DNA of 64,000 nt from Phorcus lineatus (taxonomy: Eukaryota; Mollusca; Gastropoda; Trochida; Trochidae). Both the position numbers and the translations under genes were made by a program. Position 1 is the stretch's first letter. Each line of letters opens with the position of its first letter. The notes beneath the pieces are model-generated. The model worked only from the letters and a program-made list of their open reading frames with translations. It ran no database searches and had not been told where the DNA came from. Shown piece by piece: positions 400-36,240 of this stretch. The stretch lies in contig OV121082.1 of NCBI GenBank assembly GCA_921293015.1, positions 25,433,497-25,497,496 of the forward strand, written 5' to 3'.

Positions 400-740
400 A
401 ATAAGTAACGTTTTTTTTTATCCACCTACATAATAAAGCGAGAAACTTGAGCGCTACTGACCTCTACAAGGGACAAATTGCTTTTATTTATGTATAGATA
501 GATATGATGATTGGTTTCAATCCTTAGAATTAATAAATTCTGTTTATCAAGATAATTTTGAGTGTACAACCTTGTTTATTATAATTGTATTTACGGACAA
601 ATCATTTAAATACTGCAAACGAACTACACCCTCGGAAATTAATTAAAGTTTACTAGCGTTTTAAAACTTTCTCCAATAGTAGAACAATGTTGTATGTCAC
701 TTAAAACAACTTAAAAGTTGTGCTAAAGCAAGTAATGTAC
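400..740. other. no gene seen
   Basis: AT-rich sequence with short homopolymers. No convincing exon, RNA or repeat was found. Confidence 0.5.
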
Positions 741-1400
741 GCATTTATCGATTTTAGTAAGTCAAGTTTGTTTAGGTATCGCATCTATCACAGAACAAAT
801 CCATTTAGTTCAAAGATCCGTCATATTGAATCGATAGAAGATCCTGCAAACACTAAATACAACCATGGTTGTTAAGAATATGTCAGATTTAAGAACACTA
901 TGCATCAATAATGAAAGGGGAAAATAAGCCTTAAACTATAATGCATAAAAGATCATATATTTTACATAACAAGGCCTTTAATCAATTTTTTGCATTCATC
1001 ATCCATTCGAATACAAGCTTGAGAAAACTCGAACCAGACAGACCACAACTTCAGGATGTTCGATCACGTCATTTATGTCTGTTCTAATTACTCTTGATAT
1101 TCTTTACCACTGACGCTTGACTTTGTGTATCAATATGAGATGATGCTTCTCTACAGAAATATTGACCTTTGTTACAACCATTCACCATAGGAAACATCAC
1201 CACTCAAAAGATATTATCATCAATGACAGCGAATGCCCAACTCATTATTTGGAATTGTCTGAAGGTTCCTAAGGCTGATTTCAAATTGATTTCAAAGTCT
1301 TGTAGTCCCTGTGCGTGTTGTTAATTTTGTCAAATCGATACGAGACATACAGTAGTTAGTCCTTAGTTCTCAAAGGTTAACCTTTAACAGTTAACTTGGA
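740..1400 (-). pseudogene. unit 1 of the small-exon array, terminal block
   Basis: This block aligns by eye with 15296-15500 and with the coding exon at 25928-26071. The shared core on the minus strand is TGT-ATG-TCT-CGT-ATC-GAT, matching TGT-TTG-TCT-CGT-ATT-GAT in the 26-kb copy, followed by AATTTGAAATC. Here the frame is lost by one extra base between the SRID codons and the NLKS codons, compared with the 26-kb copy. A second shared landmark, CATCTATCACAG near 785, recurs at about 14955 and 23365 and in altered form near 6365. I read this as the decayed 3' end of one paralogue followed by the upstream region of the next. The family is not recognised. Confidence 0.45.
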
Positions 1401-2185
1401 ACTTGTCGACCGAAAGGTTGAGAAGAAAGCTTGAATTGAAATGCAATATTCAGGGTTAACACATTTGCCTGAAATAAACTTTTATTGAACAAAACGAAAA
1501 AGAATTGTACAATGAAGAAATAATACCGGATATTGTAATGTAATGAGTAAGTAATTGGTAAGGTTTGTGCAGCAACTTATATCAATAGCAATAAGCAAAA
1601 ACATTTCAAGTTAAATAACCGATAGGTAAAATAAATATACATACTTTATCAAGCATGATGCTACAGTCTTGATAATGGAGACATTTTTGTGAGAATACTC
1701 TCGTGGGTTTCATACCTATCATCGGTATCCTAGATTAACACTTCACAATAACACGATCTTACATATATATTAGAGAGTATATAAGAAGTATCAATCGTGG
1801 AGAAGCATATATGAAAGTATTAAAAAATACAGAGAAGATGTAAATCAACTTTCCAAATCGTGGCTTTATCTTTTTTCCAATATGCATATTTCTGCTTCTT
1901 CATTCGAAGCTTCTTCAGGGAATGTATGTTTGAAGCACAGCAGCAGTCTTATAAAGTCTTCAGTGTTTCAAAGTAACAACACAATGCAACACAAACAGCA
2001 ATATAATCAACAATCGTCCTGGTGAGTTATCCCCTCTTACATCTAATAGGATCAAATTGGCAGTGATAGGATTAGGGATTTATGACGCTGTTCAATGGAG
2101 GAGAAACTTTTGTAATGAAACACTGTATATATAAATATATATCTAGAGATTTTAGTTCATATATGGATATATAATGAAAAACTTT

Positions 2186-2227
2186 TGATGGCTAGCGCTT
2201 GAGATCAAGTCAATGAATCTCTTCAGG
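2186..2227 (-). repeat. decayed relative of the Penelope 3' motif
   Basis: On the plus strand it reads TTGATGGCTAGCGCTTGAG and continues to CTCTTCAGG. It matches 24411-24449 next to the Penelope-like element and also sits beside a TA-rich run (about 2125-2175). The CTGAAGA half of the possible ribozyme core is kept on the minus strand; the GAAA half is not. It appears to be a remnant of the same element class inserted into unit 1 of the small-exon array. Confidence 0.5.
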
Positions 2228-2284
2228 TTAAAACGCTATGGTAGGAACACATCAATTTTAGCACAGCGAGCTGAACTGCCCACG
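2223..2284 (-). CDS. candidate small exon, unit 1 (AWAVQLAVLKLMCSYHS)
   Basis: An excellent splice acceptor on the minus strand (TTTCTTTCTCCACAG) precedes CGTGGGCAGTTCAGC. Read in phase 1 after the preceding exon it gives AWAVQLAVLKLMCSYHS and then a stop after a few more codons. The copy at 16086-16183 gives AWAPVQPVVLEFMCSYFSS in the same phase with an equally good acceptor, and the copy near 33.7 kb gives QLVVLEPVWYALQ. Frame is retained while bases change, which argues for a past or present coding exon. The peptide is hydrophobic and no domain is recognised. The 3' end runs into the Penelope-like remnant, so the true end may be lost. Confidence 0.4.
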
Positions 2285-3434: not shown

Positions 3435-3499
3435 CTCTTTGTCATTTCCATGTAGACTAAACATCCACGTTTAGATTAAAACTTCAAACCAAACTTGCG

Positions 3500-6400
3500 T
3501 AAGGTCGGTTTTCCATCAAAGCTTATTTTTAAAAAAACAATTATACAGTCACGTTCTGTGGTGATGGAAAGCCAAGAACCTGTACCTAAGAAACTATATA
3601 AAATTCTGGTTTGATCATGAATCACAATTTCGTCTTCATCGGCGAGATGAAAACTAACCTGTCATTGGACTGTTTATTTTTGTAAAATTTGAACATATAC
3701 TAACATTTCATTCATATTCATTTCATTCAACATGCTTGAGACAGTAGCATTTCCTCATCTAAAATTGGTTCAGGGGAATTCGACAAAATGGGTACATCAA
3801 TAACGTCCTAAAACAACAACGATCCCTATGAAAGCTTAATATAGTTACTGTTAGGAATTTCAAGACACTTAGCTGCAATGTCTTTTTCAACTTTTTTGTT
3901 GAAATTTCAAAATAAAAAATTTAAAAAAACCGATTGCCCTAATATTCCACCGTAGCAATGATTTCTAAGGGGAATGATAGTTTGGCACTGCTTGGGAAAT
4001 ATTTCATTCATTAGCGGCGTGCAAATTGAAATGACATATCGCGTCGATTACACTATACTGAACACGGCTAATCTGGTTACAGTACAGTTGTAAGAATGAC
4101 TTATTAAGGATATGAATGCGGTTTTAGTAACTGCTTTAAAGTATGTAGATTACTTAAAAACTCCACCACGTGACTCGGTACCTCTTCGTGGTGTTGTGGT
4201 ACGGGTGCTTTTGGTGACACCTTGAGCTATGCTCGTGGTTGGGGCACAGAAGCTGGACAGGTCGTCAGGCAGAGGCCAGAGCAAATAGGGGTCCTAAAAC
4301 CTGCTGTCTATCTCTCACTATGCCTTTCTTCCAGTCTTTTCCCTCGACCTTTCGATCCCATTATCCCTGATCTGTCCACGTGTTCAATACGTGTAACTGA
4401 AATACTGTTGATTTTGAGAAATTTTGACTTCTGTAAAAATGGAAACAACGGTATGACTAAGTTCGCATGGGAAAAGATTATTATTATGACACGCAGAGTG
4501 ACGAGATAAGGCTTCATGTAGAAATTAGGTACATAATACTGATGTAGAACGAACTTCCAACTGTGCAATCGACTACAGTGATGTTGTAAGATCATAAATC
4601 TTAAACCTTAGAAATTGTAAGAAAGTCTGGTTCAATTGTGAACCTACCTTAGTATGGGTAATCGTCGGACATTTTGATCACTTGTTCATTTGAAAGTTAA
4701 GGCCGTTTCATTTATTTTAAAAGTATACAATCTTACCCAAAAATTTAGACAACTTTTTATACAGTAATGTACTTTCATCTTACGCGGTAATAAGAAAGTA
4801 AAAATTTATAAAATTCCTAAAAAATTGACAAAATCTCTAGTCATGTCTTGTTTGCAACATGGATCTTTGATTACTGAATAAAGATTCTTTATTTCAGGGA
4901 CATCATTCAGGAATGTATGATCACTTTTATCATATGCACAATGTATGACCAATGTTTAACACAATTTTTTTTTTTTATAACATGTATTTAGAATCACCTG
5001 AATTTTATAAGGAAACTACATGATGTTCACCAATAGTTTACATTTCCTATTGATTCAAGCATTAGAGAAATAAAGGTCATATGAAGTAATACATTCTTCT
5101 AAATAACTATTCGTTTAGTGCTTCATGTCCTAAGGCATTATTTAAGGATATCTGAGGATCATTTAAAAGACTAAATATACATCATTACCATTTTATTTCA
5201 AAATGATTAAGTCAGTTTGTAATAAAACCTGAAGATTTGTTTTACTTTTGTCTTAAGTATTTAAAATGTTTTAGTTTAAACAATGCCAACCTCATTGCAT
5301 TAAATATTCTGATAAATGCAAGAAGTAGATGGATGATAGTTTAAACTTTTTATATTAAACCATATTTCTATATTAGACAGCATAATGGCATCAATGTTTG
5401 TAAGAGCATGCTAGCTATACCGATACTGTATTTTGTTACGTTCCATTGTACAGGTGTGTTAATATATTAAGGAAATTATGTATAGAATGAAGTTGAAAAT
5501 TGCATATCGCTTATAATTATCAATTGCAGTTACTGTTGTAGAAGCGCCCATGATATGTATTTTATATATGTGTCCATGTTGTTCGTATATCAAGTTACAG
5601 AATATATATAGTAATGATGACCACCTGAAATAAAATTGCATTTAGGAACATTATACATAGTTTAAAATAGACATGAAAAGGAAAATACAAACTAAACACA
5701 TTTCATGTTCAATACTTCAATCATGAGATTATATCAATTAAGCCAAATTTAGATTACATGCTAAATTCTGCACATCAACTGAAACGTTTTGATTTGCTTA
5801 GAAGATTGATTAATAAAATGAAAATATCCTTAAATCATTAAAAGACAAAAGTTTGGTACTTTTAATACATGTGATAAGACCAGTTTGAGTAATACATAAA
5901 TGTTAGAAGTAGATACACGGCAAATTTGGAATTATGCAATGCAAATTGGTCGTTATATCTTTTATTTTAAGTAATTGTTTTTACAGTAATCACATAATTC
6001 ACATCTTAGGTTTCTAAGTCACGTCTGCTTGACATCTTTCAATTTACATCAGGTAATAAATACAAATGTACAATGTACCAATTATCATCCTGGTTAAAAG
6101 TTACAAAACATCATATATTATCACTTATGGATATACTTGTGATATGAAAGGGTAGATTTAATAAACCTAAGACAGGACCTTAAATATGATATGTTTACTG
6201 AGAAGAGGAAATGTAATTGCACTCTCAATGTAAGCAGTTCATCCCTGAATCGAAAAATGTATGTTCACTAATGGATATGCTTGTGATATAAAAGAGAAAC
6301 CTTGATGTAAAACAGACTGCAATAACCTACTCTGCCGCTCTGGTGTGCAATGTCACCTTGGGTATTCCATCTATCATAGAGTTTATTTAGTTCATAAATT

Positions 6401-7840
6401 TCGCCAGCACAAATTGCATTCAAGCATCAAAACATGATAGTAGGTTTTTTTATCTGTTCAAAGTGTCATAAGTGTCTCAATATATTTCATAACAATTAAT
6501 GAATATTTCCAAAATGATCCTTGCAAACGTATTCCCTATTTCTAAAAAGTTTAAATTAGTATTCAAATTAGGTATTGGGATTTATTGACACGTTCATTGT
6601 TACATGAACATGGTTGCTTAACTTTTCAAATTCAGGACTAATTCTAAGAGACAATTTTTCAATAGGTTTTGAATAACATTTCATCCACAGGGAAAACAAG
6701 TGAGCTAAAACCCAGCTGACAATAAGTTTTATGACACAGGCACAGACATCTAACATCTAGCAATGCGTTATCTCCTGGCTCATTCTGATACTTTCACGAG
6801 ATTACTATTTGATGTATTCCAAATTGAATCTAAAGCAATGTGTAACACACTGGAGTATCAATGTCGGAGAGGGGATCAATACGTGACAAGTGTCAGGAGA
6901 GAAACCCCTGAAGCTAAGCAATAGTAATATAGAAGAGCTTTTTTGATAAAACGACCAACGAGTCGAATTTTCGATATTATTTCTGTAGCGTTAATCACAA
7001 TTGGTAATAATTTTTAATAACTTTTCTATGTTTGTGATTGCCTTATTAGCTTTAAATCTTAACCAATTTCTACACTATTCATTAAGACAACCTTTTTGTT
7101 TACAATTTTGTAAAAAAAATAATTTCTGAAAAGCAATGAAAATTTTCGAGAAGATTTAAACAATAACATATTTAAATGTCATCAGTAACGTATAAGAAAT
7201 AAATTGTTTCATAAGGTATCACATATACATACACATGCACTAAAGAGCAATTTATGAATGTTGTAATGTAGCAATGTAAGAATGAATAGTCGTTTTTGCA
7301 CTTTTGAGCATCTCAGTGTAGTACTTTTAGAAATATGTTTTGTCATTTCGAATTCTTACTGCTAGACCGTAAAATGATCTGAATCATTTGAGTTTTCAGC
7401 AGTTGTATCAACAAGATCTGAATAAATATGTTAGTGTCAACAGAAAGTTACGTTAACTTGACCCACAGAAAAAATTGATTTTGAAAAAATGAATAATTCA
7501 GGAACCTATTAAAAAAATACTATTAATCCTGAAACTTTGCTAATAACAATAAAGGTTTATGTATATTTTGATATAGTTATCATATATTTATTACTTTTTA
7601 AGCTGTTATTAATATCATGAACAATTTTTAAGCCATTCGCCTTTGACAACATAACACATTATCAAAATAATGAGACTTAAAAAAGTATAACATAAGTATT
7701 AAAAAACCCAGTAAATTTAACTTCATAGATTGTTTTTAACAAATTTACTACGGATTAATGTTATTCCAGAGCCGATGACATGATTTCTATATCTACTGTA
7801 AAACCTGTAGGCCAGGATCTTTACACTTCGTATGGTTTAA
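3500..7840. other. mostly unassigned AT-rich DNA
   Basis: No intact gene is supported. A decayed trace of the array landmark (CATCTATCATAG) is visible near 6365. A local pair of similar segments lies at about 6115-6175 and 6255-6310 (ATGGATATACTTGTGATATGAAAG against ATGGATATGCTTGTGATATAAAAG). A minus-strand open stretch at 6568-6756 (VCACVIKLIVSW) resembles a secreted peptide only vaguely and has no supporting copy. Confidence 0.4.
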
Positions 7841-7887: not shown

Positions 7888-7993
7888 TTATTAGGTCTTC
7901 AAGACAAAGTCTGGAAGACCTATTGTTTTTATCCTGTTTATTATTAGGTCTTCAAGACAAAGTCTGGAAGACCTATTGTTTTTATCCTGTTTA
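7888..7993 (+). repeat. 53-bp direct duplication of an element 5' end
   Basis: Two adjacent copies, period 53, each holding TAGGTCTTCAAGACAAAG, the returning arm GGAAGACCT and the downstream ATTGTTTTTATCC. Each is the 5' palindromic terminus of the element that follows. Doubling of only the terminus is what slippage or repeated initiation at that end would leave. Confidence 0.85.
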
Positions 7994-9424
7994 TTATTAT
8001 TATTATTATTATTTGTACTTTTTTTGTGAATCGGATTCAGCCAAAACTACTGATGCAAATTCGACCAAATTTGGCAAGCTGATAGCCCTTACTGAGGAAT
8101 AGACAGGCGAAGCTTTTCAGCTTGATCGGATCATGCGTTAAAGGCACAGTACCACTCAAACTTTCAAAAATTAACATTGAAAATTTTTTCAAAATGCACT
8201 TAGAGACTTGCAACTTTTTTCAAAAGATGCGCAATTACATTTGCAGCAAAAAAGTAAATCATGGCAAATTCGTAGCTTGCATACTTGCGCCGCCATTTTG
8301 CTTTTTTTGACTTTTTTGCATTTTCGCAACCTAAGCATCTTTGACAATCTTCTCCTCTGAAGATACATGCATCTAAGAGCTGACACTCACATATGTCATA
8401 CCTGAAGGAGTGGCGAAAAAAGTAATAGAGCAACATTTGCAAATTTGTTAATACTTTTTTTTCTGCAACCCTTCAAAGTCGGGCGACTTAGCTCGTGTGA
8501 CAATGTTCAAGGGGCAATTACTCAAAAAGTTGGACTCACAATTGCACCATATTCACTGGAGTGTAAGATCACTTTGTACACTTTACAAATCAAGAAAAAC
8601 ATCGATCGCGAACAGTCATTTCCGTTCACAATAAACGATCAAAAATCGCACAAATATGTTTAAAAAAAATTAACATGGACTATTTTTACAAAATGCACTT
8701 AGAGACCTGAAACTTGTTTTGAAAGAAGCGTACTAACAGTATAAACAAAAAAGTAAATCATGACGATTTCATAAGTATGATAGTTTTTGCACAATATCAA
8801 CTTATTTGTTCCAGAAATTGGTTTTCAACATTCCACAATTCTTGTGAACACGATTCAGCCAAAACCGCTCAAGCTGTTACAGCCAGACTTGCCAGTCTGA
8901 TAGAACTGCATGAGACGAAGCCACAATAAGCTTTTGGGCTTAATCGGCTTAAGTGTTAAAGGCACAGTACGATCTAAATTTCGAAAAATTAACATGGGAA
9001 TTTTTTTCAAAATGCACTTACAGACCTGTAACTTGATTTAAACTATAGGCAATTACAACACGAGCAAAAAAGCAAATCACAGCGAATTCGAATTATGCAT
9101 AGTTTGGCCGCCATCTTGCTTCATTTGACTTTTTGCAAATTCCTGACCCCAAGGGTTAAATTGCAAACCGTTGAAGGAAAACAATTGTTTTGAATGAAGC
9201 GCCATAACAGTACAAACAAAAAAGTAAATCATGACAAATTCATGACTAGCATAGTTTTTCCGCATTATCAACCTCTTTGCAAAAATCCCAGTTTGCTTAT
9301 GACATTTGGTCCCAATTTCACTCTCCCTTTACCACTAACACAAAGAAGCATTTTAAGCTCTAACACTGTGTGAAGTTCAAGCAGGAAGTCTTGAAGACCT
9401 AAGTACTGCCTTGGCAGTCCTAGT
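7893..9424 (+). mobile_element. Helentron/HINE-like non-autonomous element, copy A
   Basis: The 5' end AGGTCTTCAAGAC (7893-7905) is a perfect 13-bp inverted match to GTCTTGAAGACCT at 9388-9400. The 3' side continues into a short hairpin with a TT loop (ACTGCC-TT-GGCAGT, 9405-9418) and ends CCTAGT before (TTA)n. The 5' arm also folds on itself with GGAAGACCT at 7913-7921. Subterminal inverted repeats plus a 3' hairpin and AT-rich insertion sites match the Helentron/HINE (DINE-1-like) class of rolling-circle elements; the class is inferred from end structure alone. No Rep, helicase or endonuclease frame is present. The interior holds degenerate 0.5-0.8-kb subrepeats beginning GTGAA..GATTCAGCCAA. 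Confidence 0.6.
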
Positions 9425-9440
9425 TATTATTATTATTATT

Positions 9441-10780
9441 AAGGATTCAGCAATTTTGCTGAATCCTTATTGTTATTGGTGTGTTTTATTATTATTATTA
9501 TTATTATTTTTCTTCCACCGATTTTGTGAACACGATTCAGCCAATACCGCTCAAGCGGTTACAGCCAAACTTACCAGTTTGATAGAGCTTCATAAGGAGA
9601 TCCAGCATGAAACTTTTGGGCTTAATCGGCTTAAGCGTTAAAGGCACAGTACCATCCAAAGTGCGAAAAATTAACATGGGAAAATTTTTCAAAATGCACT
9701 TAGAGACTTGCAACTTTTTTTAAACGATGCACAGTAACAATTCAAGCAAAAAAGTGAATCATGGCAAATTCGTAACATGAGTACTTTGGCCGCCATATTG
9801 CTTTAATTCATTTTTTGAAATTTCCGGACCCAATGCATCTTTGAAAATCTTCTTCTCTAAAGATACATGCAATTGAGAGCTGAAACTCAGATATATAATA
9901 GCTGAAGGAGTGGGGAGAAAATTCATCTTGGAAAATTTGCATTTTTCTTCATACTTTTTTTTCTGCAACCCTTCAAAGTCAGGCGACTTTGCTCGTGTGA
10001 CCATGTTCAAGGGGCAATTACTCAAAAAGTTGGACTCACAATTGCACCATATTCACCGGAGTGTAAGATCACGTTGTACACTTTACAAATCAATAAAAAC
10101 ATCGATCGCGAACAGTCATTTCCGTTCACAATAAACGATCAAAAATCGCACAAATATGTTTAAAAAAAATTAACATGGGCTATTTTTACAAAATGCACTT
10201 AGAGACCTGAAACTTGTTTTGAAAGAAGCGTACTAACAGTATAAACAAAAAAGTCAATAATGACGATTTCATAAGTATGATAGTTTTTGCACAATATCAA
10301 CTTATTTGTTCCAGAAATTGCTTGTCAACATTCCACAATTCTTGTGAACACGATTCAGCCAAAACCGCTCATGCTGTTACAGCCAAACTTGCCAGTCTGA
10401 TAGAACTGCATGAGACGAAGCCACAATAAGCTTTTGGGCTTAATCGGCTTAAGCGTTAAAGGCACAGTACGATCCAAAGTTCGAAAAATTAACATGGGAA
10501 TTTATTTCAAAATGCACTTAGAGACTTGTAATTTGATTTAAACTATAGGCAATTACATCACGAGCAAAAAAGCAAATCACGGCGAATTCCTAAATAGCAT
10601 ACTTTTTGCACATTATCAACTTCTTTGCAATAATCGCAATTTTCAGATAAAACATGCCGCTGAAGCTTAATACATGCACCAATCTTCATGAAATTTTCAG
10701 TGAAGCTAGCTAACATTACTATCTTTGTACTGAATGTGCTTTTTATGCGCTGAATCCTTTTGTCGTCGCTTGCGACTATA
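9441..10780 (+). mobile_element. Helentron/HINE-like element, copy B with different ends
   Basis: The 5' end AAGGATTCAGC (9441-9451) folds with GCTGAATCCTT at 9458-9468 and also matches, inverted, GCTGAATCCTT at 10749-10759. A 3' hairpin with a TT loop follows (GTCGC-TT-GCGAC, 10765-10776). The end sequences are unrelated to copies A and C, yet the architecture and much of the interior are the same; about 9954-10440 is nearly identical to 8447-8940. It looks like an interior shared by two terminus families. Confidence 0.6.
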
Positions 10781-11731
10781 TTTATTATTTGTACTTTTTT
10801 TGTGAATCGGATTCAGCCAAAACTACTGATGCAAATTCGACCAAATTTGGCAAGCTGATAGCCCTTACTGAGGAATAGACATGCGAAGCTTTTCAGCTTG
10901 ATCGGATCATGCGTTAAAGGCACAGTACCACTCAAAGTTTCAAAAATTAACATTGAAAATTTTTTCAAAATGCACTTAGAGACTTGCAACTTTTTTTAAA
11001 AGATGCGCAATTACATTTGCAGCAAAAAAGTAAATCATGGCGAATTCGTAGCGTGCATACTTGCGCCGCCATATTGCTTTATTTGACTTTTTTCAATTTC
11101 CAGACCCCGTGCATCTTTGACAATCTTCTCCTCTGAAGATACATGCATCTAAGAGCTGAAACTCACATAATATCATACCTGAAGGAGTGGCGAAAAAAGT
11201 AATAGAGCAACATTTGCAAATTTGTTAATACTTTTTTTTCTGCAACCCTTCAAAGTCGGGCGACTTAGCTCGTGTGACCATGTTCAAGGGCCGATAACTC
11301 AAAAAGTTGGACTCACAATTGCACCATTCTTTCAGGAATGTAAGACCTATATGTGGACTTGATGTAACTATCAAAACATTGATCGCGAACATGGTCTTTT
11401 TTTCACAATTAACGATCGAAATCGGGAAAAATCTTTTGACAAAATTTAACATGGGGTAATTTTTCAAAATGCACCTAGAGACTTGAAACTTGTTTTGAAT
11501 GAAGCGTCATCTTAGTCCAAACGAAAAAGTCAATCATGACGAATTCGTAACTAGCATACTTTTTGCGCATTATCAACTTCTTTGCAATAATCACAGTTTG
11601 CTTATGAGATTTTGCCCCATTATAACTAACCATTTACCACCAAGACACAGAAAAGCATGCGAAGGTCAAACACTGTGTGCAGTTCAAGCAGGAAGTCTTG
11701 AAGACCTAAGTACTGCCTTGGCAGTCCTAGT
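10781..11731 (+). mobile_element. Helentron/HINE-like element, copy C, 5' end missing
   Basis: Begins at TTTATTATTTGTAC, the same place copy A enters its interior, directly after the 3' hairpin of copy B. It keeps the family A 3' terminus: GTCTTGAAGACCT at 11695-11707, the TT-loop hairpin at 11712-11725 and CCTAGT at 11726-11731. Interior identity with copy A is high over the first several hundred bases. It has no coding capacity. Confidence 0.6.
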
Positions 11732-11739
11732 TGTTATAT

Positions 11740-13510
11740 TATAGTTATTGTACCGTTTTAGGCAAAATGCATGTGTTGCTCTTTCTGCCTCTGTCTACTG
11801 TGTAAGATTCACTTAATCATACTCATAACAATGGTTGGAAGGATTGCAAAGAAGAAAACTGTGTAAGTAATTTATAACACACTGTATAAAATTGTTATAG
11901 CTATGTCAGCAACATGCATATGCATAACAAACAGTAACTCACTTAATTCACAAAAAGATTCTCTAGTAAAACATATTTTTTAAACATCAAAATTGGCCAA
12001 ACAGTAAATACAGGTCCAATTTTAATGTTTGGAATTAAGGGATATGAAGACAATGATACCTTAGAAACACACTTTAATCGCCACAATGGCATTTATGCTC
12101 ACAAAAAAGAACATGAAAGTATTTCAGTTTTTTCATAATAAACTCATTTCATTTTTTAAATATGGTATTCATTGAAATTATACGTAACTATGAAATCTCT
12201 GTCATTTGTAATTGGATAAAATTAAGAGTAGAAATGTCATCGCTCTAGGTTATCGTCTTTGTATCCTCTTGACAAATAACAAAGTGCTGCAGTGAACAGT
12301 TGTGTGGTTACACTAGAGTTCATTACCCTTTCAATCTGTGAGTTCCTATCACCATAGCATCTAAACTATTTCACCAAAAGTGATGAATGCGTAAAGATAA
12401 GAGTGTTTATGGAAATTTTAATATGTTTTAGCATGTGTATCTATGTTCTATCTTCCTTGACATGTCAAAGCAAACTTTCTAAACGAAGTATGACTTTCTT
12501 TTCAGCATTAAATGTAACCGCAACTTAATAAACTCATTGAAAGGTGTTCAAAGTCATAACGCCTGCACGAGCACAACTGATACCGTAAATTACCGTAAAA
12601 GTGTCGGTGTTCGTTTTGATTTGTAAATGCTTTATTGACAGAGAATCGAAGAAGGATGACTAAGAACGTGTAGAGTAGCAGATTTCCTCTACAGATATAT
12701 TATAAGATATGTACATCCTTAGAGTAAAGCAGCACCAGTGACCAATTGAGTTACAATATACGAACAATTCAGCATTCATCTTGCAAGGATGAACATCCTT
12801 CTCGAGCACAGAACCTTCAAATCTATAAATTCGTGAACGTTACATGTAATAAGAAAGCATTGACGACAAGCGTTATATCCTCTCAGGGAAAGTCCTCTAT
12901 ATATGATATTACAACGGTTCATCTCTGCAGATTTGACAATATTATCCATTAACGTATTTCAAATTGAAATGAAAGCAATACGAAAGCCAGTGAAGATTCA
13001 GTGCGAGAGAGTCTTCTTTTGAAGAGAGGCATGAATATGGGAAACAGTACGGAAGAATTGTGGTATTTCAGAATGAACTTTGCAATGGTACTGTTTGTAC
13101 ATACTGACAATGTCAATATGACATCTTTTAAAAGAAAGGGTATTAATTCGCGGAGAACACACAGTTAATCACCAATCTCAATTTTGATTTGATAGAATCA
13201 ATGATAATGTCATGATAATAATGATTTTATTTCAAATTACAAATTACAAATCAAACTTTACTGACAGTTGTTAAGACTGTAAAAGGATTAAAAATATAAG
13301 AGTGTATACCTTAATATCCGTAAAGAGATTTGACGAAAATGATATCAGGAATGCATAGGTAAATATCAAAAGGAAATCAGTTAAGATTCCTTACCTCTTG
13401 ACAACACAATGTCCACCTCTTCTTATGTTCCTAACGTCTTTATGACTGGGACTACTTGAAGTAACATTCAGTGGCAACACGAAGACTGAGACACCGAATT
13501 TTCATGAAGC
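11740..13510. other. unassigned AT-rich DNA
   Basis: No exon with paralogue or motif support. A short ATG-initiated stretch at 12746-12952 has no recognisable domain and is treated as chance. Confidence 0.4.
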
Positions 13511-14229: not shown

Positions 14230-14300
14230 TCGAGCTTGATTTCTTCCTCGAGTGTCAACAACATCTGGTGACTGAACTAGGAGTGATTTTAAGCTAGATT
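14230..14300 (-). pseudogene. unit 2 internal block, shared with 22.6 kb
   Basis: GTCAACAACATCTGGTGACT here matches GTCAACACCACCTGCTGACT near 22660. One minus-strand frame reads SHQMLLTLEEEIKLDL; the 22.6-kb copy reads SQQVVLTFKGGIQWQL in the same register. The preceding TCACTCCTAG could be an acceptor. Conserved register supports an exon origin, but borders are uncertain. Confidence 0.3.
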
Positions 14301-14778
14301 TGAACTGTACCTTCTAATTTGATAAGAACAATGGCATACTTTTAATCAATTCTATATTCAGCTACTGTAGAGCGTTTAAAGTTTTGATACATGTGACAAT
14401 GGACTTACCATAGTATGTAATTCATTAATTGCGCTTATCATTATTTACTGTAATTGGCATTGTTTGAACTTTACTTCACAACATTTAAATGGAGATAATG
14501 GCGTCAACTTTTGTATGAACCCGATCTAGCCTGTCATCAAGTTGAAAGACATTGGGTGCATCGGTTCAAATATACTGTGAACAAACAATGGTGTCAAAGT
14601 GAGGCAAAATGTCTTGATGCCATTGAATATAAATATGTTGATCTCCTTTTCCTTAAAAGGGTTTTCAGTGGAAATCTGAGTTTGGTTTTTAAACCTTCAG
14701 AATAGTTACATAGACAGATCAGATACCACTTTATAGTCAAGATTGAAGAGTTAATAAATTGGGTTTTAACTTGCATAC

Positions 14779-14886
14779 CTGTGACCAACTCAGATATACA
14801 AGACATGCAAACAGCAAAGGTTAATACAATCCGAATTATGTAAAATATCATTTCTTTAACAACTGCAAGCTTGTAGCAAACAACAC
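14779..14886 (-). CDS. candidate first coding exon with signal peptide, unit 2
   Basis: Bounded on the minus strand by the acceptor CCTTGTTTCAG (ending at 14887) and the donor GTCACAG|GTATGC. The ATG at 14851 follows AAAGAA and opens MIFYIIRIVLTFAVCMSC, then ISELVT, ending in phase 1. The n-region and hydrophobic core fit a secretory signal with likely cleavage after the serine/cysteine stretch. Phase 1 is the phase used by the other small exons of this array, so it could be spliced to them. The 22.6-26.2-kb unit has a diverged hydrophobic segment at the matching place (about 23.25-23.3 kb). The mature product is unknown. Confidence 0.45.
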
Positions 14887-21149: not shown

Positions 21150-22600
21150 GAAACAAAGATAAAATTATAAAAAAATGACTCAAACATCTCTGAAGGAACG
21201 AGCCCAATGTAGAGCAGATGTTCATCTTCGCTAGGGTTTGTAAGAAGGGATTATTTCGAGATTGGCGATGATTAACCAGGCATGACAAACAGGCACTTAT
21301 ATGTTATCAGGGGAATTTCCACTTAACGTAAGATAAACACGGCTCATCCATGCAGCTGATTAAGTGCAATTGATGCGAGGTGTACAAAGGCGTGTTCGAG
21401 AGTTGAATGTTTCATGACTTTGATCCACGAACACATCATGGTGTTATGTTTTCCACTTCAAAAAGTATTTCGTATTACTTTGAGAACTAAACAAAAATGT
21501 ATGTTCCAAATGAAAGAAATGAAACATTGATGTATTTTCTGTTACTTTTTGAAAGCATAAAATATCATTGAATGTTTTGTTTCCTAACACGTACGGCTTC
21601 ATACTACAGTAACAATATTGATGTACTTCATATAAGTACAAAACGATTAGTTTAACTTACATTTAAACAGTCAAGATATTAGTATGATTCTACTTTAAAT
21701 AATCGCTCTTTAATTTGTGTACATTTCATAGTCACGTGTCAGAGGACGATATAATATTTTTTTTAAATAAATAACCAATGATTATTAATTGAGAAAGAGA
21801 GAGAGTAAAACATGCAACCTTCTATATTGGGGAATACTATTTAGGGGAGAAAAAGATAACTTGAAAGAGTTTACAAGCATTTAAATATTGAATGTATGTG
21901 ATTCATTAGATTTCATTCACGTAAGAGTAAAAAGTATAAGAATAGGAAGATTTTCTGTATAAGAACTTCCTTCTTATGAAAATAACAAGACATTTCTTTT
22001 ATGCTAAAGAAGTTTTTATCAAGTAAACCTTGCTATTCTTAAGTTTGCCATTTCTAAATGCCTAACGAAAGCTTAAGAAAAAAACGTGCAGAAACTGAAA
22101 AATTGTTATTCACACATATTGGTTCTTCGTCGAAGATTTGAAAAAATAATCAGTCATATTAAAGTTCAAATTCATGCTTTCATAATTCCTATGAAGGGTG
22201 GGGTTACGTATTGTCTACTCAAGGGTTTAATAATATATATTACAAATATGCATGTAGTTATGTTTTCACATCATTATTTTAGAATATAAAACAAACCGTA
22301 TTTCTATCATATTTGGACAGGTACTTCTGAGTGAGTGTAATGAGACAAGGGTACATTTTCAGCACACTCAAGGTTAATTTTGCAATGGAAACTCCTGGCA
22401 CTCCGATTGTCAAAACAGCTTAAATAATACAGCATATGTACAGCATTAGAAGGAACATTTAGATTTAGATTAGAAGGTATAAAAACAGAGATTAGCTCAA
22501 TAAGCGGGGTGGTGGGGTGGTGGCTGTGTTTCAATGAACCAAATAGTTAATTTCATAAGGAAGTACCGCCTGGCGACACTGCAATTAAAGTGCAATACAT
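21150..22600. other. unassigned AT-rich DNA
   Basis: Short GA-rich run near 21790-21805. No supported gene. Confidence 0.4.
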
Positions 22601-22609
22601 TCAAAAACG

Positions 22610-23420
22610 TCCACAGAGATTAAGCTACACCAGTTGCCACTGAATTCCTCCCTTAAATGTCAACACCACCTGCTGACTTGGGTATGATCGATCCTGAACT
22701 TATAACCTCAAGCAAAACTAACTGCAATTATTCCGATTCATCAGAATCATAACAGACCAATTCAAGCATCATGAAAGTCAAACGCTTTAATGAATTACTC
22801 AAACTGACCATTTTTAAGCATGTTAAAACAATATCAAATTCTAAACAAGCTGGGAGATGTAGCATAAGTGAACTGTAACTACCACAACTAGCGTACATTG
22901 TTGTATATGTATAATTTAAATGGTAATTGTATATATGTCTTGACTGATTACCATATTCTTACAACACACAACATTTATTCTAAATTTTAATACTTTTTAT
23001 TTTCATAAGTCGCATGGTTATCTAGTCATGTCTTCAGTCTTGTATAAAAAGTTTTTTTTATAAAGTTTCATTGGTATCATCTACTTCGCAATTTGAAATA
23101 ATTAGCACAATATTCCAAATTGGTGAAGTGTTATTTTGGTAGATCGAGTGTATTTGTGTATGTCGAAAGATGAAAAACGACTAAAGTACATTCTACATGT
23201 TGCATTCGAAATACACTGAAAGAATTCAAATTTAGAACAAGCCAAACAAGACATAATTCTGTACTAACTGGGTTGGTTATAGACAAGATATAACATTAAC
23301 AGAAACACAAATATAATGCAGGTATATGACAGATATCAGTTGGAGCTTGTCAAATCCAATTAACCATCTCATCTATCACAGAAAAATTCCTTTACTTCCA
23401 AAATCCTTCTGGGAAGAATC
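22610..23420 (-). pseudogene. unit 3 blocks of the small-exon array
   Basis: About 22630-22690 matches 14230-14290, and 23360-23375 carries the landmark CATCTATCACAG. Immediately after the landmark, on the minus strand, ATG-AGA-TGG opens MRWLIGFDKLQLISVIYLHY, comparable in position and first residues with MRYLNKLD near 780 and MRRTDELD near 14950. These could be 5' exons or leaders of successive paralogues; none can be closed into a full gene. Confidence 0.3.
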
Positions 23421-24303
23421 AATATATTGTACTGCAGTAGTGGAATACGAACTCATCAATGATCTCTGAAGACCATCGTAACCACGCTGGACATCCCAAT
23501 GTATCTTAGATCTTAATTCCAGTGAATTACGTTCAACAAAGATTGGCTAATGTAGTTTACGTCGACCAATCATTTCCCCTTTGAAACGTGGCCCTTTTTA
23601 ATTCCATCTTCAGTACCATCTTCTGTTCTCTAAGAATAATTCAAATATTTTTGTATGCAATGGACATTTCAAGTATTCAAGAATTTCAACTTTAAAAAAA
23701 GTACTAAAGCGGACATAATGGCAGCCATTCAGGCTGCTTCATTCCTTCATTGATAAGAGAACCGCCGTTTCCTCACAGACTCTGTTCACATGATTCATGT
23801 TCACCGATAACAACTGAAGGCTTGCTCTTTTCTTTATGAGTTTTACACAACAACCAAAAACAATGAAAAATGAATTTGAATGGAATTGGCATTTTGTTTA
23901 TTTTTAGTGTCTTCATCACTTGTTTCTCTCGGTTACATCTGTTAACTTTTAACCAAATGACACCATTTCAGCGTATGAATATATATAATCAGCATGTGAA
24001 AAAGTAACAGAGATTTTCCTGTGGATAAATATATCGACATGAAAACAATTCTTTCAACTGGTATGCAAATCCGGTGATACATCAAGCAATGTTATTTGTA
24101 ATCGACAATTTGAAAAACATTCGGATTGTTTGTTTTCTGAGAATTGACGTTCGGACATGTCCATATGATGTTGAGGTCGATCGAAACCTCCATAGTTTGA
24201 GGCCAAGTCTGAATGATTGACTGAAAGGATGTTGAAGGTTAACCTGGTCGCCACTGTCTTTCGGTGCTTGGCTCGATCCTATGTAATAAGCAGCTTAATA
24301 ACG

Positions 24304-24308
<5 letters not shown>

Positions 24309-24384
<76 letters not shown>
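24309..24384. repeat. (TA)n microsatellite
   Basis: About 38 uninterrupted TA units on the 3' side of the Penelope-like element. Confidence 0.95.
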
Positions 24385-24387
<3 letters not shown>

Positions 24388-25640
24388 GTTAGAAGTAAAA
24401 ACAATCCATTTTGATGGCTAGCGCTTTCAGCTCAACGAGCCTCTTCAGGCCATACATACAACGGATAATGCGTTGCCAAGCAACGTCATCGTGTACAACA
24501 TATATACGTCACACAGGAACTAATGACGTCATAATGAACTTGACAACAATAAATTGTATTGTAAGCAACATTATGTTTTGCCATTTAATTTTGGCGCCTA
24601 TTTACGAATGAAATATGATTCTTTCAAAAGTAAATCATTATCATTGTTATAATTGTGTTTATATATCGGGAAAACCTTGAACTTGCCATTACCACATTTT
24701 TCTAAATGTTCACTGAGAGGGATAGTTCGATTTCGGGGCTGGTTAATGTGGGATCGATGAAGGTTCATTCTCCTCTTTAATTTTTGCTCTGTTTGCCCGA
24801 TATATTTCTCATTACATCCAGCACATATGATTACATAAATAACATTTTTTGTGTCACAATTGATGTTTTGTTTAACAACAAATGTATCCTTTGGTGAAAT
24901 ATTTATGGAACATCCTTCAATAATACTTTCACACGTGAAGCAACGTGAATCTCCACACTTTGATACTTTCGGAATAACCTCAACTGAGTCAAATCTAGAA
25001 TTAGTCAAAATTTTGCGTAAGTTTTTGGGTTGCTTACGGCTGTTTATGAAATTGCATTTATCGACAATCTTTTTCATTTTTTGACTAGGACTTAAAATAG
25101 GAAGATAACGTTTCACGATAGACATAGCATTATCATGATTAAGGTTAAAAGTGGATACAAGATTAAGATTATTTTGGGTATCGATATTCTTTTCCACTTT
25201 AGATCTCAGTTGTTGCTGGTCCGTATTTAAAGCTTTTGATATACTATCACTTATCAACTTTTCTGGATAGTTTTGTTTAAGTAAAAAGCTTTTCAGTTCA
25301 TCAAGGCGATTGATTTTAACATCACCATCAGAAACAATTGTACAAACTCTTCTTGCTAAACAATAGGGAATGTTGAGTTTGGTATGATGGGGGTGGCATG
25401 AACCAAAGTCCAGATGCTGATGTGAATCTGTTTTCTTATAGAATATATCCGTTGTTATGATACCTCCTGTATCTATCTTAACAATGACATCAAGAAAATT
25501 CAAATGTTCATCATGGCATTCCATGGTAAATTTCATGGAAGGGTCAAGAGAGTTAAGGATTTCGTGAATAGTTTGAAGAAGGTTATTGTCGTTTTTAAGT
25601 ATGATGAAACAGTCATCTAAAAATCGTTTCCACGAATTTT
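24385..25640 (-). mobile_element. Penelope-like element (GIY-YIG type), 5'-truncated
   Basis: The minus-strand frame from 25638 to 24598 begins inside the reverse transcriptase at SWKRFLDDCFIILKNDN, which contains the catalytic aspartate pair, and continues with SLDPSMKFTMECHDEHLNFL and the KKTDSHQHLDFGSCHPHH thumb region typical of Penelope/Neptune elements. A cysteine cluster (CGDSRCFTC) precedes a GIY-YIG endonuclease (VIYVIICAGCNEKYIGQT, then RRMNLHRSHI). PLEs copy themselves by target-primed reverse transcription using this nuclease. Most of the RT core is missing, so the copy is broken, but the remaining frame is nearly clean and looks recent. The 5' truncation point lies about 15 bases from one (TA)n tract and the 3' end directly abuts another. 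Confidence 0.9.
24413..24449 (-). ncRNA. hammerhead-ribozyme-like motif in the PLE 3' region
   Basis: On the minus strand CTGAAGA (24442-24448) is followed by a five-pair stem (GGCTC with GAGCT, tight loop) and then GAAA (24425-24428). CUGANGA, stem II and GAAA is the hammerhead core, and hammerhead motifs are known in Penelope-like elements. Downstream, GCTAGC is self-complementary and the last core A could pair with the U of CATC, placing C at the cleavage position, but two mismatches interrupt this short stem III. Stem I is not obvious. It may act only as a dimer or be inactive. Confidence 0.35.
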
Positions 25641-25648
25641 ATATATAC

Positions 25649-25757
<109 letters not shown>

Positions 25758-25927
25758 TGAAAGATTTTGTTTCCTATTCATTCAATAAGAATATACTTCA
25801 AATATCACATATCGTGAATATTTCCTTGACTACATCACTCGTTAATCATTTATTTCATCCATAACAAATTTTAAAAAAAAGTCATGATTTCTAGCCAATC
25901 AAAAGAGGCATCAATAGTCAGAAGAAT

Positions 25928-26071
25928 TTAGATTCTATCGGACTGACAGACACGTCCAGATGCATCATGGAGGGCTATCTTCAGGGTCTCTTCAACAGAT
26001 TTCAAATTGCATCCAAAGCTCTCGAGTTCCTCTATGAGTCCTGGATTGTCTGAATCAATACGAGACAAACA
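25928..26071 (-). CDS. candidate terminal exon, unit 3 (open frame)
   Basis: The acceptor AATCTCTCTAGCCAG precedes 47 codons and a TAA. The peptide starts CLSRIDSDNPGLIEELESF, continues GCNLKSVEETLKIALHDA and ends SGRVCQSDRI. It has three cysteines and an amphipathic, helix-like pattern. Copies at about 1180-1345 and 15300-15460 share the sequence but carry a frameshift or stops, so this is the best-preserved member. No family is recognised; a secreted or extracellular helical domain is a guess from the cysteines and the signal-peptide exon of the array. It lies just upstream, in transcript direction, of the (TA)n/Penelope insertion. Confidence 0.45.
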   Translation of the reverse strand, partial: CLSRIDSDNPGLIEELESFGCNLKSVEETLKIALHDASGRVCQSDRI

Positions 26072-26249
26072 CTGGCTAGAGAGATTCCCGAAGGTAGTAC
26101 TTTCATTATCAACGTGAAACTTCTCAATGGTAAAGTCAGTTTATACATGCCCATGCGGGTTGTCTTCCAAGGAACGCAGATAAAGACAATAGTTCTATAT
26201 CGAGAAAAGCACGATTTAGATATCAAAATCATCATTAACAACATGGTTC

Positions 26250-27812: not shown

Positions 27813-27889
27813 TTACACTTTAACCACATGATTTACACTTAAGCTACAGCAATTAAATCAAGTCTCTTTGGTAGCATGTTTTCATATTT
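27813..27889. repeat. 77-bp direct repeat, left copy
   Basis: TTACACTTTAACCACATG through to ATGTTTTCATATTT, repeated without visible change at 28138-28214. It flanks the duplicated 254-bp segment. A short TTACACTT/CACATG-type subrepeat also occurs just to the left (27770-27812). Confidence 0.95.
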
Positions 27890-28140
27890 GGCCAGGAATG
27901 AAAGAACGAGTATTTCCAAATGTTAAAATACAAAATGATATACTTTTGAAATACAAAACCCGCGCTCACAGTGACAATTCATACTGTTCGATTATTGAAA
28001 AGCCATATGATTATTTACCTTCACGACAATTAATGGAGTGAAATTGACTGGTCCACTCAAAGGATTCACGTTTTGACGTGATATTGTAATGATGAATCCA
28101 GTGTGACTAATTGTCGTTAATCGAGTTAGAATCTGCCTTA
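27887..28140. repeat. 254-bp segment duplicated from/to 29873-30126
   Basis: Identical by eye to 29873-30126 in the same orientation (offset 1986). Starts TTTGGCCAGGAATGAAAG and ends GAGTTAGAATCTGCCTTA. No terminal inverted repeat, poly-A or coding content was seen. Confidence 0.95.
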
Positions 28141-28214: not shown

Positions 28215-28219
28215 TGATG

Positions 28220-29870: not shown

Positions 29871-29872
29871 GC

Positions 29873-30126
29873 TTTGGCCAGGAATGAAAGAACGAGTATT
29901 TCCAAATGTTAAAATACAAAATGATATACTTTTGAAATACAAAACCCGCGCTCACAGTGACAATTCATACTGTTCGATTATTGAAAAGCCATATGATTAT
30001 TTACCTTCACGACAATTAATGGAGTGAAATTGACTGGTCCACTCAAAGGATTCACGTTTTGACGTGATATTGTAATGATGAATCCAGTGTGACTAATTGT
30101 CGTTAATCGAGTTAGAATCTGCCTTA
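29873..30126. repeat. 254-bp segment, second location
   Basis: Same sequence as 27887-28140. Here it is not flanked by the 77-bp repeat, so this is probably the donor. Confidence 0.95.
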
Positions 30127-30757: not shown

Positions 30758-31052
30758 GGTGCGGGATAGCGCATTGGTTAGTGTTTTCGGCTTGGGATGA
30801 AGAGAACCGTGGTTCGAATCCCGTGACGGGCTCGGCAACTTTGTTTGCCGTAGAGAACTATTCTACATGCTGTAAGGTTTGTTGCAATGCTACACTAAAT
30901 ATCATCGCAGTACCACTCATGTTTCGCCAGTTCCAGCCGATGCTCGATGTTTCACCGCAATGCATAGCCACAATGGTGTTGCGGGCTTTCTCTGCAATAA
31001 AACAAGCAGCCGTGACAAGTGAAATACTCTCTAAACCCCAAATCACCTTACC
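30758..31052 (+). mobile_element. tRNA-derived SINE, best-preserved copy
   Basis: The head has a canonical A box (TAGCGCATTGG, 30767-30777) and B box (GGTTCGAATCC, 30811-30821) at tRNA-like spacing. The body includes GTAGAGAACTATTC, GTTCCAGCCGATGCT, CAATGGTGTTGCGGGCTTTC and the end CTAAACCCCAAATCACCTTACC. Compared with the copies at 80, 61.7 and 62.6 kb it has lost the CGGCGTT part of the tail. No open frame. Transcription would be by RNA polymerase III from the internal boxes. Confidence 0.88.
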
Positions 31053-31059
31053 TCTGTTT

Positions 31060-33640
31060 TGGATTCAAGATATTTCAAACATTTACAACCGATACCCTAT
31101 CCATCACAACATAAGGTCATATCGGTTGGCACTTTCAAGGTAATCCATTTTATGAACTGAAATAACCATTGCCAATTTCTCGTGGAAACTTCTAAGGATT
31201 TATATTGTCAGACTTGAAAGCCTTTCCATAGTACAGCATGAAAATGGCCTGTTATGGTTGTGGCACTCCGGATCGATGATGAGAGATGGATGTGTTACTT
31301 TAACCTCGATTGCCATACATTAGTGTTTAGCATGTTTATGTAAAATCATGCCAATGAAAGAAAACTAAATTGCAAGCATCGATGAAAGTTTCAGCCGATA
31401 ATGAGGTTCTTTCATGATGCAGAAAATGATTTAAGTAATCATTCTAAGGTTACATGAAATTCGTTAATGGAGTTAAAGCAAACAACATAAGATTTTGTGT
31501 ACATAATTATGTGTTAAGAGCATGTATCTTCAATGGTGAAGATTTTGAAGGTCATGTAGATTTAGATCTGTAAGAAATAAGCTAAAATCAATATGGCGGT
31601 TTACCACGTGATCTCGTAATGATTTATGCTTATGAGTGGATTCATAACCGTCGAGACACACTTCTGCACATTTTGAATTCTTTATTAGGGCAGTTATTAA
31701 TTAAGTTTTAAGTTAATTAAGCCAATTTGGGTTAAACAGTGAAAGCTATTCCTGAAATTAAATAACTCTAACAACCGTTATAATTAGTTCTAAAGAATAA
31801 TTTCAAGGTGATTGGTGAATTAAAAATAAAAGTTTACATTCAATTGCCTCACTGAAGTACATTGTAAATGTGAGGTGGTTTCGGATTTGACAAAGTTTTG
31901 TTTGAACTGTACTTACTTACAGTACAGTGCAATGCAGAATATAAGATGTGATACTTTAGTTATATATTCTTAAGGCTAATCAATTAGTTTTTAGTGACTA
32001 TATGGCCATTATTATGTTTTTAGACCGACACAAATTTGAAATAGAAAGCTAATACCAGAAAATAGCCATTTGGTGAACAGAAGTGCAGTTTACATCAGAG
32101 CATCTCCAAGGACCGGTATAATTACAATGTTCCTCACTGAAGGTGGTTTGTGTAAAGTCCAATTAGATATATTATACAGTCGAGGTTTGGTTTGAGACAT
32201 ATGCACATCCCAGAATAGCAGATGCTTAATTCCAAAAACTGCACACTTCGTGTACACTTTTTGAAGATAAAAGGAAACCCAATGCTCTCAGCAGGAAAAG
32301 GAATTTATTTTAAACCATTTAATCAAATTAATAACATATAGGTGTTAAAAATCAGATCATGGCGCTTGAACAAAGTAGAAAAGTCAGAACAAATAATGTC
32401 GATTCACCATGAGCTGTTCTCCTAATGTGAGGACAAAATATATGATTTGTTCGTTTTTAATTGTAATTCGACTGATTTGCTTATAACAAGGTTTACAGAA
32501 ATATTTCACACTTAACCTTAAAGCTTAACAAAGATGTCTTTCACACATTCTATCACACTACTTGTCTTTGACTTACAAGAATAGATAGACCCTTGTTATT
32601 TTCAACACCTATTATTTTACATACTGAAATAATTTGTATAGATTTATTAAAAATGTAATACATTTTGGCTGTTGTTCTATACATAGATGCTGATGTTTAT
32701 AAAGTAAAGAATGATGCACAAGACATTCGTTTGTAGTTGTAGTGGCAATATCCAAATGACATATAAATGTCGAATATCTTAAGCAACTACATGTATACAG
32801 GACTCCCCTCAGTATTTTCACACTGCAAGCAGTCTTGTGAAGTAGACTTTCATATGCATAATCAAAGAGGCTTGCTTTCCGGCTCATTACACTTCCCGTA
32901 CATGATGCTCACTAACACCTATTTCACACATCATCTGCACTGTTTACGTGCTATAAAATGAAGAAGAATACAATTTTCGCAAAGTATCTCATGTGAACAA
33001 AGGCCGAGAGATAAGTGAGGGTTAGAGTATTTTATTATGTAGTTAACTTAAAGTAGCATTACCTTTGTTTTCAAATCAGAATTAACGCTTAATATTAAAA
33101 GATCTGTCCAATGAGTTAAATTATTTAGTTAATAAAATTTATAACTCAAGAGAATAGAAAGGCAATAACTTTGCCCTCTCATGATCACCTGAATAAGGGT
33201 GCAGAATATAAATGATATTAAGTAAAATAGCAGAATGTCATTAAATATGTTTCCTGGAGTAACCTGATTCTTGAATAGTGTATACGAAAATTATTTCGTC
33301 CATTCAATAAAACGTCAAGAAGGTTTTCAGCTATTGGATCGTATTAACTCTTCATATATATCTGCGTAAAACCGCGATGATCTTATTTGGGAAAGCAATA
33401 ATATTAGTCTTTGACAATAATATTATCCTGGACTGAAGCGGGAAAATTAAATATATCTTCAATTTGCAATTGGCTTCATGAAACTTTAAACAAAAATAAG
33501 AAAAACGAGTCACTTTTTAGCAAGTTAGGTCCTTACCTTACACATACGTACTCCGCAGGTTTGACCAACCAAGCCTCAGCATTTCCCGGATTGGAAATGT
33601 CTGCATGATAACAAGATCTTTTCAGGATACGCCACAAGCA
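31060..33640. other. no gene seen
   Basis: AT-rich DNA. No supported exon, RNA or mobile element. Confidence 0.4.
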
Positions 33641-33654
33641 TTAGCACATCCTTA

Positions 33655-33875
33655 GTCCAGGAGAAGCAGTATAGCTACTGTAAAGCATACCACACTGGCT
33701 CTAGCACAACCAGCTGAAATGCAGCAGTCAGAGAAAACATGATCGTTAGCGTGAGATGTGACTCTGTATCTCGACTGGGACGTTATGTGTTGCATCGAAA
33801 ACAGAATTTTATCAGGAGACTTTACAAAGCTGGAAGCGGTAGTAGCTGTATTCTCAGAATCAATGAGACATCATT
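33655..33875 (-). pseudogene. unit 4 remnant of the small-exon array
   Basis: Aligns with 2230-2510 and 16100-16430. The first block reads IDSENTATTASSF and is followed by GTAAAGTC, a possible donor, but is out of frame with its start by one base. The second block reads QLVVLEPVWYALQ and then stops. Upstream exons of the unit were not found here. A decayed fourth copy. Confidence 0.4.
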
Positions 33876-33899
33876 GTGAGAGGTACAGAGTTCAAAGTT

Positions 33900-36240
33900 C
33901 TCCTTTGAATGTCATTATCATTGGGTAACTGAAACTGGAATATAGGCATCTATAATTGATGGCAAAGTACACATAAAACGCAAGGGTCAATTTTTATTGT
34001 ACATCAGATCGTAAATAAAATACCATTCAAATAGCGTCATTTGCCTTGTGATGAGTAATATTATTTTAAATGAGGAGTAATGAGAACTCATTTACAAGAA
34101 TAAAATATATGATATATATATATGACCATTGTATTGCAAATAGTATTGATACACAAATCATTAAGTACAGCTAAGGAATGTCCTAGTAGCAAAAATGTTT
34201 ACAGTCCATTTAAAGAAATCACAATATTCCACAGGACGAAACTAGCGGGAATATTACTAGTAGCAAGTAAACATTCTCACGGCCCTAATATTGATTTACG
34301 TCCAATTTCCTGAGGGAGCGAATATTCAAAATTGATTTCCAGTGTTTTATTGCAATTTACCCACCAGTCTTTGGCACCAAGGTATTAAATGCATTGTCAT
34401 ACTGACATAATATCATTGCGAGATTAACTTTGAAGCAGTAAGAAAATATCCAAATGTTACCAACTACCCTAACCTCATATAATACATTTTTTAAAAATGA
34501 TAATCTAGGTCTGCATTGAACATTTAATCTAAGAAATATTTGGCAAAATGTTAAGCATCCCCACGTTTTCTTACTAGAAAAAGTTCCTTGATAGGAAAAA
34601 AGACAATAAGTAAGTAAACGTTATTGCATTATATGAGAGAATTATAATCTAGGCCTTTAGGAAAGAAAATTTCATTGGGATTACGTTTGGCTTCTTTGGG
34701 ATATATATAAAATTTGATATTTTAGTATGAAAAAACTTATGACATCATTCTGAGAAATGAAAGTGAATATTGGTAGTTGTAATTGCTTAAATATTACTTT
34801 CCTTGTTGATATACTTTCTTAAAGAATATACTCTGTATGCTTACCAAATTACGATATGAGCATAAACAACAATAAGAAACAATATAAAAACAAAACGTTT
34901 ATTACTTTTAAACTTTGTTAGTTCATCAAAAATAACTGACCTCGTATCACACTCACATACACGGCTTATGTTTTCCCCTTATATATCCTTATAGGTGTTA
35001 TTAAACTTGTGAATGTTGTGGACAGTTATGAGTCATTTGCAGACAAGTTAATGTATTATGCAGTAGATACGATGGCGTAATAAAGATAAGTATACTTCGC
35101 AATTTTGTACATATTATTCTGCTCCAGACGGTATTTTCAACCCGAAACAGAAGAATTTATTCACTGATTCATTACACACACAAATTCTGGAGGGAACTAT
35201 TAAATATTAAACGATTTAATAACTGTAGTCATGATTGGTGTCTGTTTCTTTAACCAAATACAATATTGTAGATGCTGCTAAACTGAAGATTTTTTTAATG
35301 AGCCCTGGAATATGTCAGATTGGCCTTACCATCCATTTACATTTGTAGGTAGAAGTTTTTTTCAAGAGAGATATTAACTGAGAAGAAATATAAAGACTAA
35401 AGGAAAGAAAATACAACTCCTCATATCATAACTTTTATATGAATGAATATTTGAAATTTAACCAATCTTTCTTTAAATAATTCAAGATATGTTCAGTATG
35501 ATATTTACGAAAAACATGTTTGGCACCCTTGCAACATAATACAGCTTAATTGTTTGAAACAACTTGCTGTCAAAATTGAGTCTACTTTCTTTTGACGCCA
35601 GTGAAATCTTTCTTTATAGCAAAGGGATTTAATGAAAACATTTTTAAGGCTAAAGGGCTAAGGAAGATTTGATTAAAAAGTTAGATTAAACGTAACAGCA
35701 AGGCAAAAATAAGTCCTGGTAGATTAAAGATAGCTTGCAAAAAAAATCTGCGTTAAAATATATGAAAAAAATCATCAAAAGTCTTGGTTGGTGCATGACA
35801 TGCAGAGAATTATAAATAAACAGCAGGTCCATACCAATCTGCAAAAATCTTATAAAAAGCAAATATATATATACATGTATACCGACCAGTGTTGCTGTCA
35901 GTTGGTCCCTATTATGTGTATAGTGATTACTTTTGCAAATGGAAAACGTTTTCTCACACAATGTATAAAACATTCTAAATGAATTACCCTTACGGTATTA
36001 ACGCTATGACAGAGGCATTAGTTGAACATTATATTCTATGACCTGCACACAGTGTAGTTTATGTTAAAAAGAGAACAGAATTGTAGCTTCAATGTTAATC
36101 AGAAAGTACAAATGTACGTTTTGTGTTATAAGCACAGAGAATGATAAGTACAATGTGATATTCAAATATTCAAATTATTTTATATCAGCTGTAAATTAAA
36201 TTTATTCAATTCTTCTCACAAAGGCCATCCATCGATCACC
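33900..36240. other. no gene seen
   Basis: AT-rich DNA. A short open frame at 34122-34313 and an opposed pair near 35690-35980 lack motif support. Confidence 0.4.

Follow-up and report, generated by a model that had tools for sequence, protein, structure and literature searches.

A probable decayed tandem array of one former locus in Phorcus lineatus, first read as a secreted-protein gene family

The stretch analysed here, 64,000 nucleotides of contig OV121082.1 of the gastropod Phorcus lineatus (assembly GCA_921293015.1, positions 25,433,497 to 25,497,496; hereafter the window), carries in its first 34 kb a series of related blocks on the minus strand, which a preliminary description had read as a family of small-exon genes for secreted proteins. 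In our opinion it is rather likely that the region is a decayed local tandem array, the worn-out duplicates of one former locus, and not a working secreted-protein family. The copies in the window mostly look like relics, and a current coding function is putative at most. The relationship among the blocks was recognised correctly: they are indeed diverged copies of one minus-strand unit, and the decay suspected in some of them is borne out by the frameshifts and stops described below. The protein family itself found no support on closer analysis.

The relationship emerges from a sensitive comparison of block against block on one strand, the search space for the E-values being fixed at 4e8. A set of islands, collinear and on the same strand, is common to block A (0.74-2.76 kb), block B (14.2-16.65 kb) and the interrupted block C/D (22.6-33.9 kb). 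A and B match in three places in the same order (761-1007 to 14934-15168, E 2e-5; 1106-1359 to 15221-15475, E 7e-36; 2235-2757 to 16131-16649, E 3e-43), C matches A at 23314-23436 (E 3e-6) and 25900-26136 (E 4e-10), and D matches B at 33559-33725 (E 1e-6). We name the islands P1, P2 (the core) and P3 to P6, and the copies A, B, C, D, Q, Y and Z; coordinates of 0 or less lie to the left of the window, 0 being the last base before it.

Copy B (14230-16650, minus strand, as are all copies) is the most complete, with P6 at 14234-14295, P5 at 14893-15020, P1 at 15302-15478, the core at 15985-16270, P3 at 16309-16409 and P4 at 16538-16649. In copy A (720-2760), BLAST and profile matches place P5 at 725-850, P1 at 1163-1365, P3 at 2406-2505 and P4 at 2645-2757; what remains of its core lies at 1701-1760 and 2235-2369, on either side of an insertion at about 1761-2234. 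This insertion includes a plus-strand Penelope-like fragment (2126-2234) that resembles the end of an element at 24.3-24.45 kb, with 71% identity over 108 bp to 24346-24449, part of this match being an AT repeat. Copy C retains a low end at 22600-23440 (P6 at 22639-22700, P5 at 23318-23435) and P1 at 25900-26085, while copy D (33537-33880) holds the core and P3. Because a Penelope-type element with a GIY-YIG domain (24598-25638) separates the islands of C, and D holds the parts that C is without, D is probably the displaced high end of C, the two being one interrupted copy, as the order of the parts suggests. The element as a whole occupies 24300-25760, between (AT)n tracts, and lies between two of the C islands.

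How far single matches can be trusted was gauged by repeating this kind of search on the reversed sequence of the window and 100 kb added on either side of it, 264 kb in all. The blocks B and C2 gave no match there, C1 gave two (best E 2e-5), D two (best 0.005) and A six (best 8e-5), five of the six lying in one AT-rich stretch, 2102-2186. Since control matches reach 2e-5, C1, the low end of C, is the weakest block, and single P5 matches of about 1e-5 to 1e-6 stand little above the control; what speaks for P5 is that it turns up in four copies, each time in the corresponding position.

The array proved larger than first described. The blocks named in the preliminary description stand, and further copies lie at 6.2-6.9 and 12.8-13.2 kb as well as 0.35-14.3 kb to the left of the window, among them copy Z (-8.1 to -5.75 kb) and the P1 piece Y (-0.51 to -0.35 kb). 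Copy Q (6200-6920), with a diverged P1 (6735-6903) and P5 (6327-6428), keeps their order and has a similar spacing; its link to the array comes from the P5 profile (E 0.0016) and, weakly, from that of P1 (E 0.64). It is 70% identical to a stretch at -10.0 kb. A diverged copy of the Q/P1 kind at 12800-13240 matches -1.26 to -0.87 kb at E 1e-19 and is found from the 6.2-6.9 kb query at E 0.002, and both of these stretches resemble others at -14.3, -10.4, -4.3, -3.5 and -1.2 kb. It is copy Q that ties the other stretches of this kind to the array.

Iterated profiles over the 264 kb, counted at E <= 0.001, recover P1 in nine places, P5 in five, P3 in four, and P4 and P6 in three each, and the core in six pieces (whole in Z, B and D, in two in A, and partial at -6.5 kb). 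The E-values of profile members are inflated, the independent values being more trustworthy. All matches at this threshold share one strand and fall between -14.3 and +33.9 kb; none was found outside that interval in the 264 kb, so that the array spans about 48 kb and extends some 14 kb beyond the left edge of the window. Weaker matches also fall within the cluster, for P1 at -3.4 kb and, as two short matches, at -9.7 kb (E 0.026-0.34 for these) and for P5 at -10.2 kb (E 0.083) and -4.1 kb (E 0.96), and a single P1 match lies outside it, at 152.9 kb, with E 1.8. Searches with single sequences do give matches outside the cluster: those of an AT-rich part of A (2094-2188; best E 3e-5), which the reversed control matches too, and, at E 0.009-0.038, scattered lone ones for A, B, C1 and D.

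Whether such a unit is confined to one locus can be judged from the whole genome (958 Mb in 74 contigs), searched as DNA with unit B, copy Q and copy D at a sensitivity of about 70% identity. Unit B gave four matches, itself, Z and two parts of A, all at the locus; copy Q gave three, all within the cluster; and copy D found itself alone. More diverged copies are missed at this setting, the B query returning none of C, D and Q, and the D query not returning Z, which it matches at about 64%. A short interspersed element (SINE) at 30786-31060, used as a control, gave 3,769 candidates genome-wide; 40 of them were scored, and the matches listed, 42 in number, fall on both strands. Since unit B had only four candidates, all local, against this number, the unit is, down to an identity of about 70%, not a dispersed repeat but confined to its locus. 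Several copies in one orientation, with one order of parts and without dispersal, are what local tandem duplication would leave behind.

The coding interpretation found no support. The preliminary description had seen a conserved reading register between copies, yet mismatches show no codon-position bias in any of 18 copy pairs (eight pairs of islands and ten pairs of Q copies; p 0.16-0.94), in a test that is blunt because indels shift the phase in some pairs. The CLSRID frame, taken earlier for a terminal exon, is open in C for 70 codons (26140-25931), broken in Y by the loss of two bases, and broken in A and B by frameshifts or stops. A lone 70-codon frame is no evidence of coding, since the window holds 98 stop-to-stop frames of at least 70 codons; 59 (50-66) are expected under a first-order Markov null, and the excess may come from the frames of the transposons present. 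Known protein relatives can be set aside as well: the array peptides gave only sub-threshold matches in Pfam, and the CLSRID peptide had no PDB match below E 1.2.

It is nevertheless quite possible that the unit was originally coding, because several observations favour it. Four of the five Q copies stay open over P1 for 41-46 codons, and their peptides look similar by eye; D has a frame of 72 codons across P3 and the core. Over 36 codons of the D core there is a small, non-significant third-position excess, mismatches by codon position numbering 9, 12 and 15 against Z (p 0.32) and 11, 13 and 16 against B (p 0.47). By eye, the core indels of A, B and Z measure 3, 3 and 6 bases, all of them multiples of three.

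The splice signals give a mixed answer. The acceptor noted at 2284 in A recurs at 16183 in B and at -6065 in Z and is absent in D, so that it stands in three of the four copies; the core donor AAG/GTAAG (the slash marks the junction) is likewise found in three of four, at B 15988, Z -6254 and D 33537, and is absent in A. In D it reads AAG/GTAAGG, the acceptor there being lost. The other signals proposed earlier are each confined to one copy: the 2653 donor to one of three, the 2501/2448 pair to one of four and the AG at 26071 to one of four, all by eye. The 14779 donor closes a stretch of which A, C and Z have no copy. That stretch, MIFYIIRIVLTF... (14779-14851, minus strand), had been taken as a signal-peptide exon, and it reads in B as a hydrophobic, ATG-led peptide with a GTATGC donor. 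Elsewhere in the 264 kb it is matched at best at E 0.006 as DNA, at 54.5 and 56.8 kb, and at E 0.57 as protein.

The best-conserved part of the unit is the core, about 300 bases long (15.96-16.28 kb). Over 15960-16279, B and Z are identical at 296 of 314 aligned bases (94%), against 162 of 238 (68%) in the 120-base neighbours on each side (p 4e-16), and A and B at 103 of 120 against 217 of 387 in the flanks (p 7e-10); the windows were picked after the alignment had been seen, and these p-values are descriptive. The upper boundary of the conservation falls near 16.25 kb of B in the A/B comparison and near 16.27 kb in that of B and Z. Inside the core lies an exon-like segment of 196 nt in B (15988-16183, minus strand; acceptor TCTACAG/CG, donor AAG/GTAAGT) and 190 nt in Z, with 3-6 stops in each of the three frames in both copies (4-6 in B). 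As for a structured RNA, the B core folds no better than its shuffles (z 0.15 and 0.21) and the window has no Rfam match at gathering score, and we reject that candidate.

Four other explanations have to be weighed against the decayed array. The view that a lineage-specific family of secreted proteins, built from small phase-1 exons, is still alive here could appeal to the open CLSRID frame in C, the hydrophobic peptide of B with its donor and the open stretches over P1 in four of the five Q copies. A living family should, however, show a kept open frame, an excess of substitutions at third positions and a signal exon common to its members, and we found none of the three; a search of the genome with the CLSRID protein also matches nothing except itself, and long frames are abundant in the window anyway. 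We regard such a family as very improbable. The same holds for an old dispersed transposable element, which the preliminary description itself had named as the finding that would undo its reading. The region is rich in transposons, yet the genome-wide matches of B, Q and D are local, the copies keep one orientation and order, and no profile match at the chosen threshold lies outside the cluster in the 264 kb.

More serious, if still unlikely, is the view that the copies are spliced non-coding RNA genes arranged in tandem, the core being a constrained non-coding exon and B, Z and perhaps D still being transcribed. The core is conserved between B and Z and between A and B with close upper boundaries, an acceptor stands in A, B and Z and a donor in B, Z and D, and stops interrupt every frame of the exon in B and Z. 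Against this, neither the folding of the B core nor Rfam gives a sign of RNA structure, and the core of A is split by an insertion. In its most specific form, a family restricted to the species or clade, with an exon of about 196 bases and its flanking intron under selection while the surroundings decay, the proposal is in our opinion doubtful. Gene conversion offers another route to the same pattern, if the cores of B and Z were homogenised recently and those of A and B in an earlier event, with no function at present. The short tract of 94% identity between flanks of 68% speaks for it; however, A and B have nearly the same upper boundary though A has diverged much further, and conversion would need repeated events with like ends, which makes it improbable. 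Constraint on a non-coding exon and repeated conversion could both produce the core, and the data do not separate them.

The history of the decayed array may then be sketched as follows. A unit of several parts would have been duplicated repeatedly at the DNA level, without processing and in the same orientation, into an old, locus-specific array that was later broken by transposon insertions and point decay. Acceptor and donor signals stand matched in the part that is conserved best, and for this reason the ancestral unit probably belonged to a spliced gene that was read leftward.

Several other features share the region. At 7990-11742 there is a composite array of repeats of about 1.3-1.5 kb with internal sub-repeats, 74-89% alike; we considered them as further units, and no match to the islands is listed for them. 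Two remnants of LINE-type (long interspersed element) reverse transcriptases lie on the minus strand, one with zf-RVT at 18553-19767 and RVT_1 at 19761-20636, the other with RVT_1 at 51744-52169. An identical 254-bp direct repeat stands at 27887-28140 and 29873-30126, about 2 kb apart, and an inverted repeat at 48788-49060, with 83-bp arms 91.6% alike and 107 bp apart, is a possible element of the MITE (miniature inverted-repeat transposable element) kind. A tandem duplication of 898 bp at 61048-62844, 99.9% identical and thus a very recent event, holds a SINE. To the left of the window, the closest listed frame of at least 110 codons is one of 389 codons on the minus strand at about -41.3 to -40.1 kb, which by eye resembles a sperm-protein-17 type RIIa/IQ protein.

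The case illustrates that matching small exon-like segments by eye can make a decayed array of duplicates look like a gene family. Should the core prove to be transcribed, the locus would exemplify selection that acts on a non-coding exon whose neighbours have already decayed.

Among known systems, unprocessed pseudogene clusters that evolve by birth and death come close to what we describe, being likewise local and on the same strand, with the distances between islands kept, graded decay and interruptions by transposons. Unlike these, the present array has neither a functional founder nor a parent protein that we could find, and its ancestral coding role is putative. Tandem arrays of long non-coding RNA genes share with it a conserved exon-like core, splice signals and the lack of an open frame; here, however, one island alone shows the pattern strongly, and transcripts would be putative. 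The SINE of the same region is also repeated, and differs in being dispersed, with 3,769 candidates across the genome as against the four of unit B.
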